Below are positions 23,195-28,726 of a stretch of 30,194 bases of DNA, in pieces (positions within the stretch are counted from its first letter, which is position 1; each line of letters begins with the position of its first letter). Both the position numbers and the translations under genes were made by a program. The notes below the pieces were generated by a model that was not told the origin of the DNA, ran no database searches, and saw only the letters and a program-made list of their open reading frames with translations. The DNA is taken from the IMG/VR virus record IMGVR_UViG_3300042981_000067, positions 1 to 30,194 of that record; one strand, 5' to 3'. This stretch comes from a virus.

Positions 23195-23375
23195 GACTCC
23201 ATATGAGGAGTTAAAAGACTATATTGATGACTACATTAAGCACCTAGAGAAGATTAATAAAGAACGCCTTAAATCAGCTGAGAGAGAATTAAAGTTCACT
23301 CAGATGGAGGCAATCGCTTTTAATCTTCTAAGACAAAACATAACCAATTTGGAGGCTACTAATGGAGTATCCTAA
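23178..23375 (+). CDS. Small coiled-coil protein
   Basis: This 65-residue hydrophilic helical protein has heptad-like runs (YEELKDYIDDYIKHLEKINK and SAERELKFTQMEAIAFNLL). It begins inside the membrane-protein gene and its stop lies 14 bases into the RNA ligase gene; the GGAGG for the ligase lies in its last codons. A coupling or accessory role is possible. No family recognised. Confidence 0.5.
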   Translation: MSKKPKTPYEELKDYIDDYIKHLEKINKERLKSAERELKFTQMEAIAFNLLRQNITNLEATNGVS

Positions 23376-24070
23376 AATCAATTCTCTTTGGAAACGTCAG
23401 GGATGGTACTTCGACGAAAAGGAGAAGAAGGAGTGTCTTTGACGCTTCACGCCAAAAGTTTAGACAGTCGTTCATCGAGGGGGACTATGCTTGCCCTGAG
23501 TTCGGTTCCATAAACCGATGGATGATCGACGAAAAAGTTGACGGTACTAACGTTCGGATTTTTTGGGAGCCAAACGACCAGTTTTCCCCTAATTACGGCG
23601 GCCGGACAGATAACGCGCAGATGCCAACCTCTTTGCTTCAACACCTCCAACATACTTTCACCCGCGAAAAGCTTCAAAAGCAGTTTCCCGATGCCCGGAA
23701 GGTCATTCTTTTCGGTGAAGGGTACGGCCCAAAGATCCAAGCTTGCGGTAGTAGGTATCGAAAAGATGTGTCCTTCATCCTCTTCGATGTCTGGATTGAC
23801 GGATGGTGGCTCGAAAAGGAAAGTGTATTGGAGATTGCCAGTGCACTTGATATTGAACACACCATTAATCAACGGATTATGACAACCGCTGAGGTTGTTG
23901 AATTCGTAAAATCTAAGCCCAAGAGCTATATCGCCGAAGATAGGGAGCTGGTCATGGAGGGAGTAATAGCGCGAAGCGTCCCGCTTATGCTCTTCCGTAA
24001 TCACAAGACTCCTATCATGTTCAAGTTAAAGGTTAGGGACTTCCCAGATATTAACGAGGATGCAGCTTAA
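23362..24070 (+). CDS. RNA ligase expressed through a +1 frameshift
   Basis: Frame 1 starts at ATG 23362 after GGAGG, reads MEYPKINSLWKRQGWYFDEK and ends at TGA 23440 after 26 codons. The continuation is in the +1 frame from 23441 (DASRQKFRQSFIEGDYACPE onward) to 24070, giving about 235 residues. It is a PF09414-type RNA ligase. Motif I is K58-V-D-G (lysine to be adenylylated), with FGEGYG near 117-122, ILFDVW near 139-144, EGVIAR near 199-204 and FKLKVRDF near 220-227. The +1-frame sequence has no ATG, GTG or TTG before motif I, and the N-terminal YPKI...L..R is typical of the family. The crossing point has the prfB programmed-frameshift geometry. It would seal RNA nicks, for example in cleaved host tRNA. 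Confidence 0.8.
23428..23443 (+). promoter_or_regulatory. prfB-like programmed +1 frameshift site
   Basis: Sequence AAGGAG-TGT-CTT-TGA-C: an SD-like hexamer (23428-23433), three bases, the slippery CTT codon (23437-23439) and TGA followed by C. Bacterial prfB uses AGGGGG-TAT-CTT-TGA-C with the same spacing to shift +1 when release factor 2 is scarce. Here the shift joins the two halves of the RNA ligase. Confidence 0.7.
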
Positions 24071-24534
24071 TGATCAAGTTAATACTTAGGGGAGATCCTG
24101 TAGCTCAAGCGAGGATCCGGGTATTTAAACGAGGTAATCGAGTAATGACATTCGACCCTCAAACAGTTCTCAAGCGAGAACTAAAGTTGCAGGTGCTCGA
24201 TCAAATCGAGCGCCTCACCTGAAAGTTTCCGGATTACCCTCGGGTGATGTTCTGGTTCTATATGCCTATCCCTAAGAGCATGTCAAAGCGCGACAGAGCA
24301 GATGCAATGAAGGGACACTTAAAGCATATTAAGAAGCCTGACGTGGACAACCTAGTCAAGTTATATCTTGACGTTCTATCAGGTACCGCCATCGCAGACG
24401 ATAACGCGGTTTCTATAGGGACAGCGATAAAAGTTTACTCCTCTCATCCTAGAGTTGAAATCTACATAGAGGAGACGGATAAAATTGTAACCATGAACGA
24501 AGTTTGGGAGGGAACATGGCCGACGCAAGATTAG
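24070..24534 (+). pseudogene. RusA-like Holliday junction resolvase with in-frame TGA
   Basis: The frame starts at 24070 (TAATG overlap with the ligase) and would give 154 residues, but codon 51 is TGA (24220-24222), in the same frame on both sides. Before it: MIKLILRGDPVAQARIRVFK. After it: MFWFYMPIPKSMSKRDRADA, then IKKPDVDNLVKLYLDVLSGT and ADDNAVSIGTAIKV, the RusA signature with the catalytic Asp residues in KPDxDN and DD. RusA-like enzymes resolve Holliday junctions or branched replication intermediates. The gene may be inactivated, read through at UGA, or carry a sequence error. A GTG at 24244 or ATG at 24247 could start the 3' part, but neither has a good ribosome binding site. Confidence 0.75.
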
Positions 24535-25106
24535 GTGCTGCCGAAGAGGTCATAAATCAGATAACTAATAGATTGTATGATAATCTATTAGGACAAGAAA
24601 AAGAAATCATAGAGTTTGTTAAAAACGCTTCTATAGTAACTAAAGAAAGATTAGTAAAAGACAATATATTGAAGAAAACAAATAAATTTATTGAGGCTTT
24701 GAATAATGAGTTCAAAGATGTTAAATTTATTTGTAAATGGTCTTTTGGTACTTCAATGTTAAATCATGAGATGCACCGATATGATTCAGATCTTTATAAT
24801 CAGGAGTATTTAGAAGAAGAGGATGATTTTTACTCTGACCCTGATATTGACTATTTTTATGAAACCGCCCTTACAGATCTTACTATTAAAATAGAATACT
24901 ACTGGGAAAGAATTTGTTCTTTAGGATGTAAACATAGAACTAAAAGATTTATGATTATGAATATCCCCAAACTTATTGATTTTATAGAGTATATTCATAT
25001 AGGAATGCCGGCACGAACTTTTGTTAAAGAGTTCATACCGGATTTCTTTTATGATCCTACGCAGCCCCCAAAGAAACGAGGCCGTCCAAAATCTTCTCGT
25101 AGTTAA
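24516..25106 (+). CDS. AT-rich gene for a protein with a C-terminal AT-hook
   Basis: The ATG at 24516 follows GGGAGG; an upstream TTG in the same frame is less likely. The 196-residue product is helical with an acidic middle (LEEEDDFYSDPDIDYFYETA) and ends PPKKRGRPKSSRS, matching the AT-hook core (R-G-R-P-K), which binds the minor groove of AT-rich DNA. Base composition is clearly more AT-rich than the neighbours, suggesting separate acquisition. Its last 50 bases overlap the convergent serine recombinase gene, and the AT-hook is encoded within that overlap. Function unknown. Confidence 0.55.
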   Translation: MADARLGAAEEVINQITNRLYDNLLGQEKEIIEFVKNASIVTKERLVKDNILKKTNKFIEALNNEFKDVKFICKWSFGTSMLNHEMHRYDSDLYNQEYLEEEDDFYSDPDIDYFYETALTDLTIKIEYYWERICSLGCKHRTKRFMIMNIPKLIDFIEYIHIGMPARTFVKEFIPDFFYDPTQPPKKRGRPKSSRS

Positions 25107-25779
25107 TATAGACTCTGGACGTAGCTCCGTGCGTCCAGATCCCTCCATCGCGATTTCGTAAGCCTTCATCATTAAGCTTGTCGGCAATGTCCCGAAAGCT
25201 TAAATCTTGGTGCATGCGATAGGTATACATCTTCTTGAGTATCTTGGCCTCATCTGGATGCGTTTCTAGCAAGCCATCGCCGTTTAAACGCTGACCATAT
25301 GGAATGCGTCCAACGCGCTCACCTCTCGCCTTCTTGCGCGATAGGGCTGCCTTTGTGCGCGTGGATATAACCAACGCTTCATAGTGGGCAAATAGATCCA
25401 TGATGCCCCTAAGTAAAACGTTATGCGGTTCGTCGCCCTCCATTTCACCTATTGCAGAAACAAGTTTCGCTTTTTTCTTTTCTATGATACGCTCAATCAT
25501 GCCCATAATATAAGTGTCTCGCGCAAGTCGTTCCCTCTTATGAACGATGAGCACATCGCCTTTTGTCAATAGGGAAAGAGCTTCTAGCAGTTTAGGACGC
25601 TCTTCTAGCTCTTTCCTTTTTCTATCTGTCCCGGTCACAATGTCAATAAACTCAGTGACTTCACCGCCTCCAAGTTTCTCGATCCATTGCATACAGGCAT
25701 GACGCTGAGCTTCTAGGCCTAATCCAGAGTCTTCTTGCTTATCTGTAGAGACCCTTAGATATATAAAATACCGCATCAT
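25057..25779 (-). CDS. Serine recombinase (resolvase/invertase family)
   Basis: This 240-residue protein has the catalytic domain of serine recombinases: YLRVSTDKQ (7-15) with nucleophile Ser11 and Arg9, and LIVHKRERLARD (77-88) with Arg84 and Arg87, followed by the long E helix region. The C-terminus (about 150-240) holds GRIPYGQRL, SFRDIADKLNDEG and NRDGGIWTHGATSRVYIN, which is part of the Recombinase DNA-binding domain. It is much shorter than large serine integrases. It could catalyse integration, inversion or resolution; no attachment site is visible. ATGA coupling links it to the upstream membrane protein. Confidence 0.85.
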   Translation of the reverse strand: MMRYFIYLRVSTDKQEDSGLGLEAQRHACMQWIEKLGGGEVTEFIDIVTGTDRKRKELEERPKLLEALSLLTKGDVLIVHKRERLARDTYIMGMIERIIEKKKAKLVSAIGEMEGDEPHNVLLRGIMDLFAHYEALVISTRTKAALSRKKARGERVGRIPYGQRLNGDGLLETHPDEAKILKKMYTYRMHQDLSFRDIADKLNDEGLRNRDGGIWTHGATSRVYINYEKILDGLVSLGAA

Positions 25780-26009
25780 TCAGCCTTCTTTAACTGGCTA
25801 GAGTCGTTAATCATGCAACATTCTTTCATTCTTAATACTGTTTTAACTTCTACCATATCGGTTTCTAATCTTGTCATTCTATCCTCCATCTTCTCAATCC
25901 TCTTAGATAGATTACTCCATATAAAACCTAATACAGCAGTGATAAAAGCCGTTTGTAGGCCTATCAGCCACATGATTGTTTGGGCAAATCTCCACGTGTT
26001 TTCGTCCAT
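25776..26009 (-). CDS. Holin-like or XhlA-like membrane/coiled-coil protein
   Basis: This 77-residue protein has an N-terminal transmembrane segment (FAQTIMWLIGLQTAFITAVL) followed by a coiled coil (LSKRIEKMEDRMTRLETDMV) and a Cys pair (KECCM). The hydrophobic helix plus heptad tail resembles haemolysin XhlA-type holin-associated proteins, though the order and neighbours (serine recombinase) do not prove a lysis role. AAGGA precedes the ATG. Its stop is TGA in an ATGA overlap with the recombinase start. Confidence 0.55.
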   Translation of the reverse strand: MDENTWRFAQTIMWLIGLQTAFITAVLGFIWSNLSKRIEKMEDRMTRLETDMVEVKTVLRMKECCMINDSSQLKKAE

Positions 26010-26042
26010 AAACTTTTTCCTTTGATTTAATGTGTTGCTTCT

Positions 26043-26348
26043 CTATTGTTCATCTTGTATTTGTTTAACAGCTTGCCGGCATTTAGCTAACATGCGTTCG
26101 CCTACTTCCTCCGCATTGATAACGGCGCGCTGGTCCATAAACCTAAGAAGGTCTGATATGGCTACTATAGAACGCCCTAACTGGTATCGAATAGTCTCGA
26201 CTAGTTCGCGTTCTTCACCTTCTAGGAATTCACAATCTAAGGCCTTAGATTGTAGTTCATGCGCTGATTTTATGGACGCTGAAAAAGCCCCAAGCGCGAA
26301 AATATATTCTTCAAGCTTCTGGACACTCTGTATATCAATAAGATTCAT
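26043..26348 (-). CDS. Helical hypothetical protein
   Basis: This 101-residue, mostly helical and acidic protein (EYIFALGAFSASIKSAHELQ, then EEREL and GRSIVAISDLLRFMDQRA) ends QAVKQIQDEQ. It overlaps the gene before it by ATGA and is followed, after 33 bases, by the membrane-protein gene. No family recognised; possibly a small regulator. Confidence 0.5.
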   Translation of the reverse strand: MNLIDIQSVQKLEEYIFALGAFSASIKSAHELQSKALDCEFLEGEERELVETIRYQLGRSIVAISDLLRFMDQRAVINAEEVGERMLAKCRQAVKQIQDEQ

Positions 26349-26626
26349 CTACAGGCCTCCGGTAGTTCCACTCTTCTTACTTCAACTTCTACCACAAACC
26401 CCATTGCCCGCATATGATCTATTTCTATTTTCGTAAAGGTTTTGCGCCTCATTAGGATCGCTAGGCCATACGCGAATTTGTTAACAGGGTAAAATAAAGG
26501 TCGCGTTAAAACGTCGGCATATGATACTTTGACCGTCGGTATTCCGGCACTGTCATAATCCAGCGTCATGCCCTCCCATATCTTCTTGTAATCTTCTTTT
26601 GCTTTCTCTAATTCTTGCTTGTTCAT
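26345..26626 (-). CDS. Hypothetical protein, first of a leftward accessory operon
   Basis: This 93-residue protein has a helical N-terminus (MNKQELEKAKEDYKKIWEGM) then a mixed alpha/beta part with PTVKVSYADVLTRPLFYPVN and TFTKIEIDHMRAMGFVVEVE. GAGGGG precedes the ATG. Upstream at 26704-26722 is the palindrome-bearing TTGATT promoter element. It is followed by an ATGA overlap with the next gene. Function unknown. Confidence 0.5.
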   Translation of the reverse strand: MNKQELEKAKEDYKKIWEGMTLDYDSAGIPTVKVSYADVLTRPLFYPVNKFAYGLAILMRRKTFTKIEIDHMRAMGFVVEVEVRRVELPEACR

Positions 26627-26703
26627 ACAATCCCCTCAGTGTTTTGTTTGTTAAGCCAACAAGATATCACACACGCGCTTTATCTTGTTAGCTAAATGAT
26701 TAC

Positions 26704-26722
26704 TTACTGGAAATTCAATCAA
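26704..26722 (-). promoter_or_regulatory. Operator/promoter element of the 26626-25057 operon
   Basis: The minus strand reads TTGATTGAATTTCCAGTAA, differing at only two positions from TTGACTGAATTTCCAGTCA at 28871-28889. TTGATT can serve as a -35; the -10 at the expected distance is weak. It lies about 80 bases upstream of the operon's first ATG. It is probably bound by the same repressor as the other sites. Confidence 0.4.
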
Positions 26723-26733
26723 ATTCCAGCGGT

Positions 26734-27267
26734 TCAATGATTGAAAAATACGTGCATGCCGTCATTGAGCTCTATAGTGAATATATCACCATTTAACTCC
26801 ATATCACGCCCCATCCCATCCCAGTCAATATAATGCTGAAAATACTTAGGGATTTCGTGTCCACATTCTTCTGTTATATATTCGGCATATTCCCCAACGT
26901 CTTTATGAGTTCCTTGATAATTATTCTCAAGAAATTCTTTTGCAACTTCAATGGTTGTTCCTGATCCTAAATGTGCGAGTAGTTCAAGGATTAATTCGCC
27001 GTTTTCTTCATGCTCGATCAAGTTAGCTATCTCGCATAACTCCTCTAAATTACTCCATTCTTCGACGCGATAAGAGCCGAAACCTTCAGCATCATGTATT
27101 GCCCATTCTTCAGCTATTTCGCCGTATTCTTTAGTAACCGGCGATTCTTTTAACATTGCGTCGATCTCTGCCCTAAAATCGTCATAATCTTGCGCTGCAT
27201 CAATCCACTTGCCATGTAACCAACCGTTATTGTATGCTGCCAAACAAGCAACGTATACGCGTGCCAT
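26734..27267 (-). CDS. ardA: ArdA antirestriction protein
   Basis: This 177-residue protein has the family's opening RVYVACLAAYNNGWLHGKWI, a middle with EEWAIHDAEGFGSYRVEEW and the characteristic end with WDGMGRDMELNGDIFTIELN then MHVFFNH. It is strongly acidic, as expected for a DNA mimic that blocks type I restriction-modification complexes. It ends with TGA, at the usual end of the family, showing that TGA is a genuine stop here. A large inverted repeat in its leader suggests regulation. Confidence 0.92.
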   Translation of the reverse strand: MARVYVACLAAYNNGWLHGKWIDAAQDYDDFRAEIDAMLKESPVTKEYGEIAEEWAIHDAEGFGSYRVEEWSNLEELCEIANLIEHEENGELILELLAHLGSGTTIEVAKEFLENNYQGTHKDVGEYAEYITEECGHEIPKYFQHYIDWDGMGRDMELNGDIFTIELNDGMHVFFNH

Positions 27268-27273
27268 AATAAT

Positions 27274-27338
27274 ACCTTAGTTTAATAGTTTAGTTTTGTG
27301 TCTTGCTTAATCGCAAGTCACTAAGCCTTAAACTAAGG
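27274..27338 (-). promoter_or_regulatory. Inverted-repeat leader between ardA and the XRE gene
   Basis: The 11-base inverted repeats CCTTAGTTTAA (27274-27284) and TTAAACTAAGG (27328-27338) enclose about 43 bases, with an inner hairpin CTTGC/GCAAG. Together they could form a long stem upstream of ardA in the leftward transcript, or an operator with two distant half-sites. The right half is itself part of GCCTTA-AAC-TAAGGC. Confidence 0.4.
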
Positions 27339-27353
27339 CACAGAGATTTGAGA

Positions 27354-27581
27354 TTAAGGAGGCATTAAGTCCTTTGGTGACACTCCTAACGCTCTAGCTA
27401 TGCTTATTATCTTTTCTAGTCCTACGCTTCTTTTTCCTCTCTCTACTGAACTGATATAAGTCGGGTGTAAATGTGCTTTCTCAGCTAATTGCTCTTGCGA
27501 CATATCAGCTTGATAACGCAACATCCGAACCGTTAATCCAAATGTTTTCTTGATAGAATGTTTATTTTTAGGTATCGTCAT
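27354..27581 (-). CDS. XRE (Cro/CI type) helix-turn-helix repressor
   Basis: This 75-residue single-domain protein has VRMLRYQADMSQEQLAEKAH followed by PTYISSVERGKRSVGLEKII and ARALGVSPKDLM, the classical five-helix XRE DNA-binding domain. It is the obvious candidate for control of the early operons. The word GTATCGTC occurs at its own start codon and twice nearby, as possible autoregulatory sites. No dimerisation domain is present, so it acts as a short Cro-like or C-protein-like regulator. Confidence 0.85.
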   Translation of the reverse strand: MTIPKNKHSIKKTFGLTVRMLRYQADMSQEQLAEKAHLHPTYISSVERGKRSVGLEKIISIARALGVSPKDLMPP

Positions 27582-27636
27582 ATGATTTAATCTATCTACG
27601 ACGATAGAATTAAAACATAGACGATACGCTATGAAA

Positions 27637-27795
27637 TTAGTCGATAATCTCTATCGCTTCTTCTTTAGCCTCAATACATTCGTCGCATACAGTATCGTCA
27701 TATTCCCAGTATCCTTGACGGTATGCCTCTATACTTTCAGCGGTAACGCGATAGACTACTAAGCACGTTTGAATTTCGGTTATTTCTATCAGCAT
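27637..27795 (-). CDS. 52-residue protein with a CxxC motif
   Basis: The frame from ATG 27795 reads MLIEITEIQTCLVVYRVTAE and later YDDTVCDECIEAKEEAIEII, ending with TAA. It overlaps the preceding gene (stop TGA at 27789) by 7 bases, typical for the coupled genes in this run. One CxxC pair plus a further Cys is compatible with a small metal-binding peptide. Function unknown. Confidence 0.6.
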   Translation of the reverse strand: MLIEITEIQTCLVVYRVTAESIEAYRQGYWEYDDTVCDECIEAKEEAIEIID

Positions 27796-27992
27796 GTTAA
27801 ATCTCCTTTTTGTGCGTTCTTTCGCTCTATGGCCTTAAGATCAGCTATAACGCCTCCCAGCTTGCACCATTGACCGAAAAAGTAAGATTCATTCTCTTGA
27901 CGGCCGGCGCGCTTTTCTTCAAGGTATCTACCCTCTAGGGCGACAAGCTCCTTTCGGTATTGCTTAATCAACATTCTTATATCTTCTTTCAT
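27789..27992 (-). CDS. Small helical protein
   Basis: This 67-residue helical, charged protein (MKEDIRMLIKQYRKELVALE then GRYLEEKRAGRQENESY) has the composition of a small coiled-coil DNA mimic or regulator, though no family is recognised. Its start overlaps the stop of the gene before it (ATGA), and its stop overlaps the gene after it. Confidence 0.55.
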   Translation of the reverse strand: MKEDIRMLIKQYRKELVALEGRYLEEKRAGRQENESYFFGQWCKLGGVIADLKAIERKNAQKGDLTC

Positions 27993-28117
27993 AGTGAATA
28001 TATCCTTAAGTATGTGTAGTTTCGGTTATATTCACTCGTAAACTCGAAAGCCTCCCGCCACCCTTTAAAGGTGTAGCGGGATATTTGATTGCCTAGGGTG
28101 TATTCAACTATACACAT
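27989..28117 (-). CDS. 42-residue mini-gene in the overlapping run
   Basis: The frame from ATG 28117 reads MCIVEYTLGNQISRYTFKGW then REAFEFTSEYNRNYTYLRIY and ends with TGA sharing an ATGA with the next gene. It overlaps the end of the 116-residue gene by 14 bases, and the coupling at both ends supports translation. It is rich in Tyr and Arg. No function can be given. Confidence 0.5.
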   Translation of the reverse strand: MCIVEYTLGNQISRYTFKGWREAFEFTSEYNRNYTYLRIYSL

Positions 28118-28454
28118 AATTCCACCCCCTAGAATGCTCCCGGTCAAAGGCCTCTATGCCGGCAATCTCTAGGACTCCGAATAAGCGTTTAGATATGCCG
28201 GGGAAACGCGCTATAGTGCCGTTAGGATTGATTCTAAAACTTCCATACTTCTTTATAGGCCTAGTCTGTAAATAGTCCTTATCGGTAAACCAACCGCCGG
28301 TAAACATGTAAACCGTGCCGGTTATGGCGCCGTCGTTATTCTCTTTGCCTATTTCAATAAAATACTTGTAGTTAGGCGATTTAGAGTCGAACTCCTCAAG
28401 GAATTCGACTTGATCTAATACGTAGTTAGCGCGTGCGCTGCAAGAGTATCCCAT
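28104..28454 (-). CDS. Hypothetical protein of the overlapping accessory operon
   Basis: This 116-residue protein (MGYSCSARANYVLDQVEFLE, then YKYFIEIGKENNDGAITGTV and GGWFTDKDYLQTRPIKKYGS) looks like a compact alpha/beta fold. Its ATG overlaps the upstream TAA (TAATG). Genes in such runs next to ardA are often anti-defence or early host-takeover proteins, but there is no motif to support that here. Confidence 0.55.
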   Translation of the reverse strand: MGYSCSARANYVLDQVEFLEEFDSKSPNYKYFIEIGKENNDGAITGTVYMFTGGWFTDKDYLQTRPIKKYGSFRINPNGTIARFPGISKRLFGVLEIAGIEAFDREHSRGWNYVYS

Positions 28455-28726
28455 TATTCGCCCCCTTCAATCAAAACTAGATCATAAAGAGGCTGAAAGG
28501 TTTTCTTATCGCATATTCTGATAGTTGTATCGCTTATTTCCTCAACATCTACGCGCTTTCTAGCGCTAGGGTATAGAAACCCTTCCTCGACCATTAAGCG
28601 TGCGATATCTGATCTTTCGGCGCCATAACCTATTTCAATTTGGCCGGCCTTAAACCACATATTGCAATCCCATAGGCCTTTTTCCTCGCCCGCCCATGCG
28701 TCAATTGATAAAACTTGATACTTCAT
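28454..28726 (-). CDS. Hypothetical protein, first of the overlapping operon
   Basis: This 90-residue protein is mixed alpha/beta: MKYQVLSIDAWAGEEKGLWD, then GYGAERSDIARLMVEEGFLY and YPSARKRVDVEEISD, ending EGGE. It is the first cistron of a leftward run of five overlapping genes (28726 to 27637). The promoter and operators lie at 28824-28908. Function unknown. Confidence 0.55.
   Translation of the reverse strand: MKYQVLSIDAWAGEEKGLWDCNMWFKAGQIEIGYGAERSDIARLMVEEGFLYPSARKRVDVEEISDTTIRICDKKTFQPLYDLVLIEGGE

Follow-up and report, generated by a model that had tools for sequence, protein, structure and literature searches.

Is an RNA ligase split over two reading frames made as one protein by a programmed +1 frameshift of the type found in prfB, and what does the UGA at the frame junction contribute? 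The question is raised by a 30,194-base IMG/VR virus record, IMGVR_UViG_3300042981_000067, which was analysed as a whole and is termed the window (record G000) hereafter.

Organization of the two-frame ligase gene

Conceptual translation with one base skipped at the junction gives a single 235-aa protein ending at position 24070 (Table 1). A profile search revealed that residues 52-221 of this product match PF09414 RNA_ligase with an E of 6.7e-15 and 56.1 bits (cut-off 27); the product also matches phrog_548, and motif I, KxDG, is present as KVDG in the ligase alignment. Search against the PDB sequences gave no match at E 0.001.

Table 1. Features of the ligase and RusA genes in the window, and of the tRNAs in related records
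Feature	Position	Strand	Remarks
Shine-Dalgarno (SD) sequence GGAGG of the ligase	23351-23355	+	Direct reading
Frame-0 segment of 26 codons, MEYPKINSLWKRQGWYFDEKEKKECL, the conserved N-terminus of the ligase family	23362-23439	+	Starts with ATG 23362
AAGGAG, putative internal SD-like stimulator, followed by TGT, 3 nt before CTT	23428-23433	+	
Slip site CTT TGA C	23437-23443	+	CTT 23437-23439, TGA 23440-23442, C 23443; slip itself putative
19-nt run AAGAAGGAGTGTCTTTGAC, invariant in four phages	23425-23443	+	Longest invariant run of the gene
+1-frame RNA ligase segment	23441-24070	+	Motif I KVDGTN from 23534; stop TAA
Internal ATG (M54)	23522-23524	+	Without SD; possible but unlikely alternative start
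RusA-like Holliday junction resolvase, in-frame TGA inside	24070-24534	+	PF05866, E 1.4e-21 across the TGA; phrog_140
In-frame TGA, RusA codon 51	24220-24222	+	TGG (Trp) in G028
Aberrant tRNA-Trp(CCA), 4-nt connector	L027 6846-6916; L029 16685-16757; L112 1459-1531		Missed by default ARAGORN and Rfam

A preliminary description of this DNA had placed the ligase start behind GGAGG in frame 0 and the rest of the gene in the +1 frame, and both the sequence and the PF09414 match of the 235-aa product bear this out. Its reading of AAGGAG-TGT-CTT-TGA-C in prfB geometry at the junction is likewise upheld by direct reading, with a single occurrence in the window. The N-terminus in frame 0, described as typical of the family, carries the residues Y3, K5 and R12, which are invariant in the 25 aligned homologues, as are E43 and W50 (L005 numbering). 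Its claim that motif I has no start codon ahead of it had to be corrected, as the ATG at 23522 sits four codons before the motif I lysine. A start at this ATG would cost 53 residues, family-conserved positions among them, and is preceded by no SD-like sequence.

The site resembles that of prfB in its SD-like purine run, ending 3 nt upstream of CTT-TGA-C, and in the short frame-0 ORF with the remainder in the +1 frame, taking as reference the cassette geometry in the accessible part of PMC12421855. It differs from prfB in the stimulator, which is AAGGAG in the ligase of the window and AGGGGG in the prfB consensus.

Occurrence of the slip motif

The exact motif RGGRGNNNCTTTGAC has one copy on the two strands of the window, located at the frame junction, compared to 0.02 expected (two of 100 shuffles had one). 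With two mismatches allowed, eight matches were found against 6.07 expected, which is no excess. A chance origin of the exact motif, which the preliminary description had considered unlikely for a random indel, was rejected on the basis of the 0.02 expected copies together with the agreement of three relatives.

A scan for the exact 16-mer yielded 12 stretches, three of which belong to related ligases and two to release-factor-like genes in viral records; the other seven, judged by eye, show no two-frame protein. The two release-factor-like genes share the 16-mer and the two-frame layout and served as a positive control. These genes match PF00472 and PF03462 and have the identical AAGGAGTGTCTTTGAC at L014 1893-1908 and L022 5114-5129 (minus), so the prfB cassette is also present in phage-borne release-factor genes.

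The degenerate motif AARRARGARTGYCTTTGAC was met in 42 stretches, including three ligases. Among the 39 others, 27 carry it within one unshifted capsid-like frame, so that the letters of the motif alone prove nothing; the remaining 12, inspected by eye, have no ligase or two-frame protein. These 27 contigs of L238-L276, about 4-8 kb in size and with the motif inside the unshifted frame PKKNVFDLTHDVKLSA, are regarded as coincidence and as a negative control. The small contigs in this set are presumably Microviridae-like. A regular-expression search for other prfB-type sites in 16 assembled records gave looser matches in G002, G004, G006, G012, G013, G015 and G028, which were set aside on the ten-residue flanks only.

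Ligase relatives, selection and predicted structure

A scan of viral contigs recovered nine ligase relatives, with the three closest, L002, L003 and L004 (records G001, G002 and G003), at 93, 88 and 85% aa identity. These three come from three different metagenomes and have the same two-frame layout with AAGAAGGAGTGTCTTTGAC unchanged. The other six have neither the layout nor the run, and L005 (G004) and L006 (G005) among them possess one in-frame TGA each. An alignment of phage ligases, suggested in the preliminary description as a check, thus finds the motif and the two frames in the three nearest relatives and no motif in more distant ligases. A profile scan extended the family to at least 218 relatives, of which the best 80 were retained, 76 of them new. 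One new relative, L035 (G010), has four in-frame TGA codons, and L075 has one TGA near the aligned start, in a stretch resembling the sequence that precedes its real start; in the other 74, the matched stretch is free of stops and of a second frame, a few of the matches beginning after the N-terminus. The frameshift layout is limited to four phages, and the next relatives, G004, G005 and G010, are without a frameshift.

Among the window, G001, G002 and G003, dN/dS is 0.00-0.07 in the frame-0 part, which is short (about 12 synonymous sites), and 0.05-0.09 in the +1 part, at a dS of about 0.4-1.6, with saturation in two of the N-terminal comparisons. Purifying selection is strong in both parts, and therefore an indel artefact or a pseudogene is very unlikely. 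Over the ligase gene, 46% of the third positions are invariant in the four phages. The 19-nt invariant run was rejected as a stand-alone proof, since codon shuffling gives a P of 0.47 for a run of such length at any place in the gene; for six fully invariant codons at one given place, it gives a P of about 0.006.

In an AlphaFold model of the homologue L005, the pLDDT is 91 at residues 1-10, 61, 52 and 77 in the next three tens, and 84-97 beyond. The shift site falls in a low-confidence linker of this model, between a confident N-terminal stretch and the core. Structural similarity search using Foldseek gave T4 RNA ligase 2 (Rnl2) as the top match of the homologue, with an E of 1.8e-9; the two share about 15% identity, and L005 has 224 residues compared to 319 in the PDB entry.

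Proposed mechanism and comparison with known frameshifts

Judging from sequence, a programmed +1 frameshift as in prfB likely gives rise to the ligase, and the frameshift is very probably real and required for an intact enzyme. Against this reading stand the small number of phages that carry the site and the departure of its stimulator from the prfB consensus. Translation would initiate at 23362, and 26 codons would be read before the ribosome stalls at UGA C. AAGGAG, three bases upstream of CUU, would pair with the anti-SD of the ribosome, and the peptidyl-tRNA-Leu would slip from CUU to UUU, so that GAC enters the A site and reading continues in the +1 frame. The resulting product would unite the N-terminus of the family with the nucleotidyltransferase core, and its yield should rise with slow UGA decoding, i.e., when RF2 is limiting, as at prfB. 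Anatomy, conservation and selection in both frames are observations, and the slip, its efficiency and its sensitivity to RF2 are inferences.

A regulatory link to RF2 or to UGA decoding, through which, as the preliminary description proposed, an RNA repair enzyme would be tied to termination capacity during infection, is plausible but less likely than not. The gene encodes an RNA ligase, not RF2, so there is no autoregulatory loop at this site, and an RF-1 domain was found in none of the seven records G001-G005, G010 and G028. The ligase cassette provides a natural test of the prfB cassette as a portable sensor of RF2 activity. In the available text of PMC12421855, cassettes of this type shift at 52.7% in B. 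subtilis and at 6.6% in M. smegmatis, so that slippage in the host of the window may be high or low.

Every +1 site with CUU before the stop in RECODE is prfB, as stated in the accessible portion of PMC10885494, and the GeneTack clusters of known frameshifts comprise 11 of transposases and one of prfB (PMC3711429, in part). The +1 frameshifts of phage genes in the available sections of PMC5009743 also shift in the same direction, but they use proline-codon slip sites in structural genes, whereas the site of the window ligase is CUU UGA and the shift is required for an intact enzyme. The preliminary description knew of no such site in a phage RNA ligase, and the titles and abstract openings listed in searches of an open-licence library agree, giving no prfB-type site outside release-factor genes. 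A cassette catalogued so far in prfB is present here within an unrelated enzyme.

An in-frame UGA in the adjacent RusA gene

A TGA at RusA codon 51, or at the equivalent position, is present in all seven records that hold the region (G000-G005 and G010), and the residues flanking it vary across the seven. The ligase must also pass a UGA in each of these records, by a frameshift in four and at an in-frame UGA in three. A RusA relative free of a stop is present in 19 of 40 further records. The nearest relative lacking the TGA, in G028 (L139; 55% identity), has TGG at this place, and the other 18 (37-46%) are gapped or carry a different residue there. The TGG of G028, a single relative, makes it probable that the RusA UGA codes for Trp. 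The variable neighbours had suggested that the UGA is a stop-specific gate, a proposal rejected on the Trp codon of G028.

In the five records G000-G004, the RusA TGA is the only TGA-for-Trp seen besides codon 10 of the G004 ligase. These five phages retain the TGA in RusA and otherwise use TGG.

UGA usage in the phage group

Read-through of UGA is a process seen in Q-beta, and stop-codon recoding in phages was reportedly the subject of a study by Borges et al. in 2022. A residue tally at TGA over all open frames proved to be noise and was replaced by a codon tally at the Trp positions of G001 genes, with RusA excluded because it holds the TGA. The TGG/TGA counts are 99/0 in the window, 126/0 in G002, 25/0 in G003 and 91/0 in G004, compared to 61/22 in G005, 60/32 in G010, 20/9 in the short contig L136 and 25/9 in the short contig L137. 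TGA is aligned with Trp at 22 of 23 sites in G005, 32 of 38 in G010, 9 of 11 in L136 and 9 of 10 in L137. TGA as Trp is thus seen across the genes of these four and not in the window. The capsid scan comprised 78 contigs, 70 of them once the four recoded contigs and the four repeating G001, G002, G004 and G028 are set aside; neither these 70 nor G028 has a TGA at any Trp position compared. Single TGA codons at non-Trp residues occur in G004, L133 and L195.

The group spans 88-98% capsid identity and holds phages with UGA as Trp together with phages without it. The capsid of G001 shares 93% identity with that of G005 and 90% with that of G010, hence the difference in code use is recent. In a tree of seven structural proteins from nine records (without G003, and with G055 and G062 as distant relatives), G028 branches first and G004 next, followed by G005, G010 and the frameshift group (G001, (G000, G002)) in unclear order. 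In their use of TGA for Trp the sister species G005 and G010 are like table-4 phages (UGA = Trp), unlike the window, which uses TGG in the genes compared.

At plus-strand gene ends comparable with G001, TGA is the stop at 0 of 116 across the seven records of the window clade and at 47 of 489 across 65 records of the wider family. The pooled Fisher P of this deficit is 5e-5 over records that are related to one another, and the deficit is weak for single genomes (P of 0.10 for G001 and of 0.15 for the window, both against a slightly larger family tally). On the minus strand, 10 of 47 genes in the clade end in TGA. An early-region gene (window 26345-26626, minus) does so in all six members in which it was detected, UGA-recoded members included; the TGA is 9 codons past the aligned end in G003 and 13 codons past it in G005. 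The five TGA-ended genes of the window all lie within the minus-strand block 25057-28726, with none on the plus strand, and a TAA or TAG lies 0-24 codons beyond each of their TGA ends. Back-up stops are given as a feature of phages compatible with two codes in the accessible part of PMC10746230, and TGA ends with such stops would suit a phage meeting both kinds of decoding. The block itself appears as a lysogeny or early region with a serine recombinase, an ArdA antirestriction gene and an HTH repressor.

A candidate UGA-reading tRNA

ARAGORN at its default setting found no Trp or UCA tRNA in the window, which is short by about 10 kb, or in its relatives, and Rfam on seven sources added none. 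With a lowered threshold, at which ARAGORN made 238 tRNA calls in 12 sequences, most of them surely false, a tRNA-Trp(CCA) emerged in G004, G005 and G010 (Table 1). A sequence pattern recovered the same three, in addition to another CCA tRNA-like stretch in the outgroup G009. Across the three tRNAs, 11 of 21 pairs are changed on both sides, and 98.4% of the cells pair, above all 500 shuffles, in a MAFFT alignment with a structure drawn from the same three sequences; slid versions of the structure are 38-45% paired.

A covariance model of the three detected, in the other sources of the genus (an informal term here), only other tRNAs and a weak UCA-like stretch of G004. With filters off in G001, G002 and G003, only the tRNA-Ile of G001 scored above 12 bits, and in 45 wider sources nothing exceeded 27.2 bits. 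The tRNA-Trp(CCA) was not found in G001, whose 97-base terminal repeat marks it as complete, in G002 or G003, or in the incomplete record of the window. No candidate for a UCA suppressor tRNA was accepted in the group. The weak stretch of G004 (L027 5953-6020) is tRNA-like, with UCA as its anticodon and hardly any D arm, at 20 bits.

UGA can be read by variants of tRNA-Trp(CCA) in which the D-stem or the anticodon stem is altered, according to the available portions of PMC13092985 and PMC11805395. The candidates share with the UGA-reading variants (Hirsh G24A; a 4-bp anticodon stem) the CCA anticodon and an altered connector or D-arm region, and in that of G010 the top pair of the anticodon stem is mismatched; the candidates differ from the Hirsh-type variants in being phage-encoded. 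Altogether, the structurally odd tRNA-Trp(CCA) may be a UGA reader and is a concrete candidate decoder. Most predicted TGA-recoding phages have no obvious suppressor tRNA, and a Sup-TCA tRNA is reported for 11 of 73 predicted table-4 phages (PMC11210395, accessible part).

Alternative explanations

The site might be a correction of an accident, a net 4-base insertion that disrupted the frame within a variable linker and after which only variants that by chance formed a good slip site kept the ligase, with no regulatory role; the site would then be conserved because the gene needs it. We consider this a serious possibility, somewhat short of an even chance. It agrees with the location of the site in a variable stretch of the protein where relatives without it are shorter, with the low confidence of the linker in the L005 model, and with the recognition of frameshifting as a correction of 'savior' indels as a class (PMC5009743, in the portion available). 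Against it, the complete prfB cassette is unchanged over a dS near 1, though a small indel could restore the frame, and it accounts for the ligase alone, leaving aside both the UGA kept in all seven RusA genes and the passage of a UGA by all seven ligases, four with and three without a frameshift. That the record is metagenomic invites the suspicion of a sequencing or assembly error or of a dying pseudogene, but four records agree at the junction, at a dS of about 0.4 to saturation and a dN/dS of at most 0.09, and the probability of such an origin is negligible. Internal initiation at the existing ATG four codons ahead of motif I, giving a shorter functional ligase with the upstream frame as a leader, is highly improbable: the start has no SD, the invariant residues Y3, K5, R12, E43 and W50 would be lost, and purifying selection acts on the protein encoded by the frame-0 part.

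UGA could instead be a sense codon for Trp in the host or during infection, in which case RusA is simply translated, the ligase slips at a slow UGA-Trp independently of RF2, and the RF2 logic would not apply. The sister genomes and short contigs with TGA at Trp sites, the absence of TGA from the plus-strand ends of the clade and the Trp of G028 at the position of the RusA UGA argue for it. The exclusive use of TGG in the window, G002 and G004 argues against it, as do the TGA ends of the minus-strand genes in the window and the weakness of the stop deficit in single genomes; moreover, the UGA of the window ligase, when read as Trp, meets a TAG stop seven codons later. We judge this explanation unlikely.

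UGA as a possible switch between two repair genes

Returning to the prfB-type frameshift, the choice of repair enzymes produced in these phages may be set by how UGA is read. A more specific proposal, which we hold to be doubtful, is that UGA acts as a translational switch between two adjacent repair genes, with the ligase made when UGA is slow and the ribosome slips, and RusA when UGA is read as Trp. Such a switch would explain both the RusA UGA and the passage of a UGA by the ligase in the seven records. If true, the ligase and RusA would report on UGA decoding by the cell or, where present, by the odd tRNA-Trp(CCA) of the phage, and in the window clade the prfB-type slip site would replace a lost UGA-reading tRNA. 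The group would then display a stop-codon reassignment in progress or in retreat, affecting the gated genes first (or last) and, in the sister species, the whole genome with TGA as Trp. With its intermediate states in two genes, the group bears on how and why phages change the meaning of a stop codon.

Capsid and terminase relatives

Search with the capsid profile found no relative among genome contigs, and in named phages identities stay below 30% among the 20 of 34 capsid matches listed. A terminase relative (46% identical) is encoded by L237, a contig of 45.7 kb from a metagenome bin assigned to Hyphomicrobiales, which gives a weak hint of the host; naming the host from this match was rejected, the identity being too weak. 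In L193, L201, L203, L206 and L207, the capsid match exceeds the DNA needed (1258 bases for 312 aa in L193), which points to an insertion, an intron or an intein.
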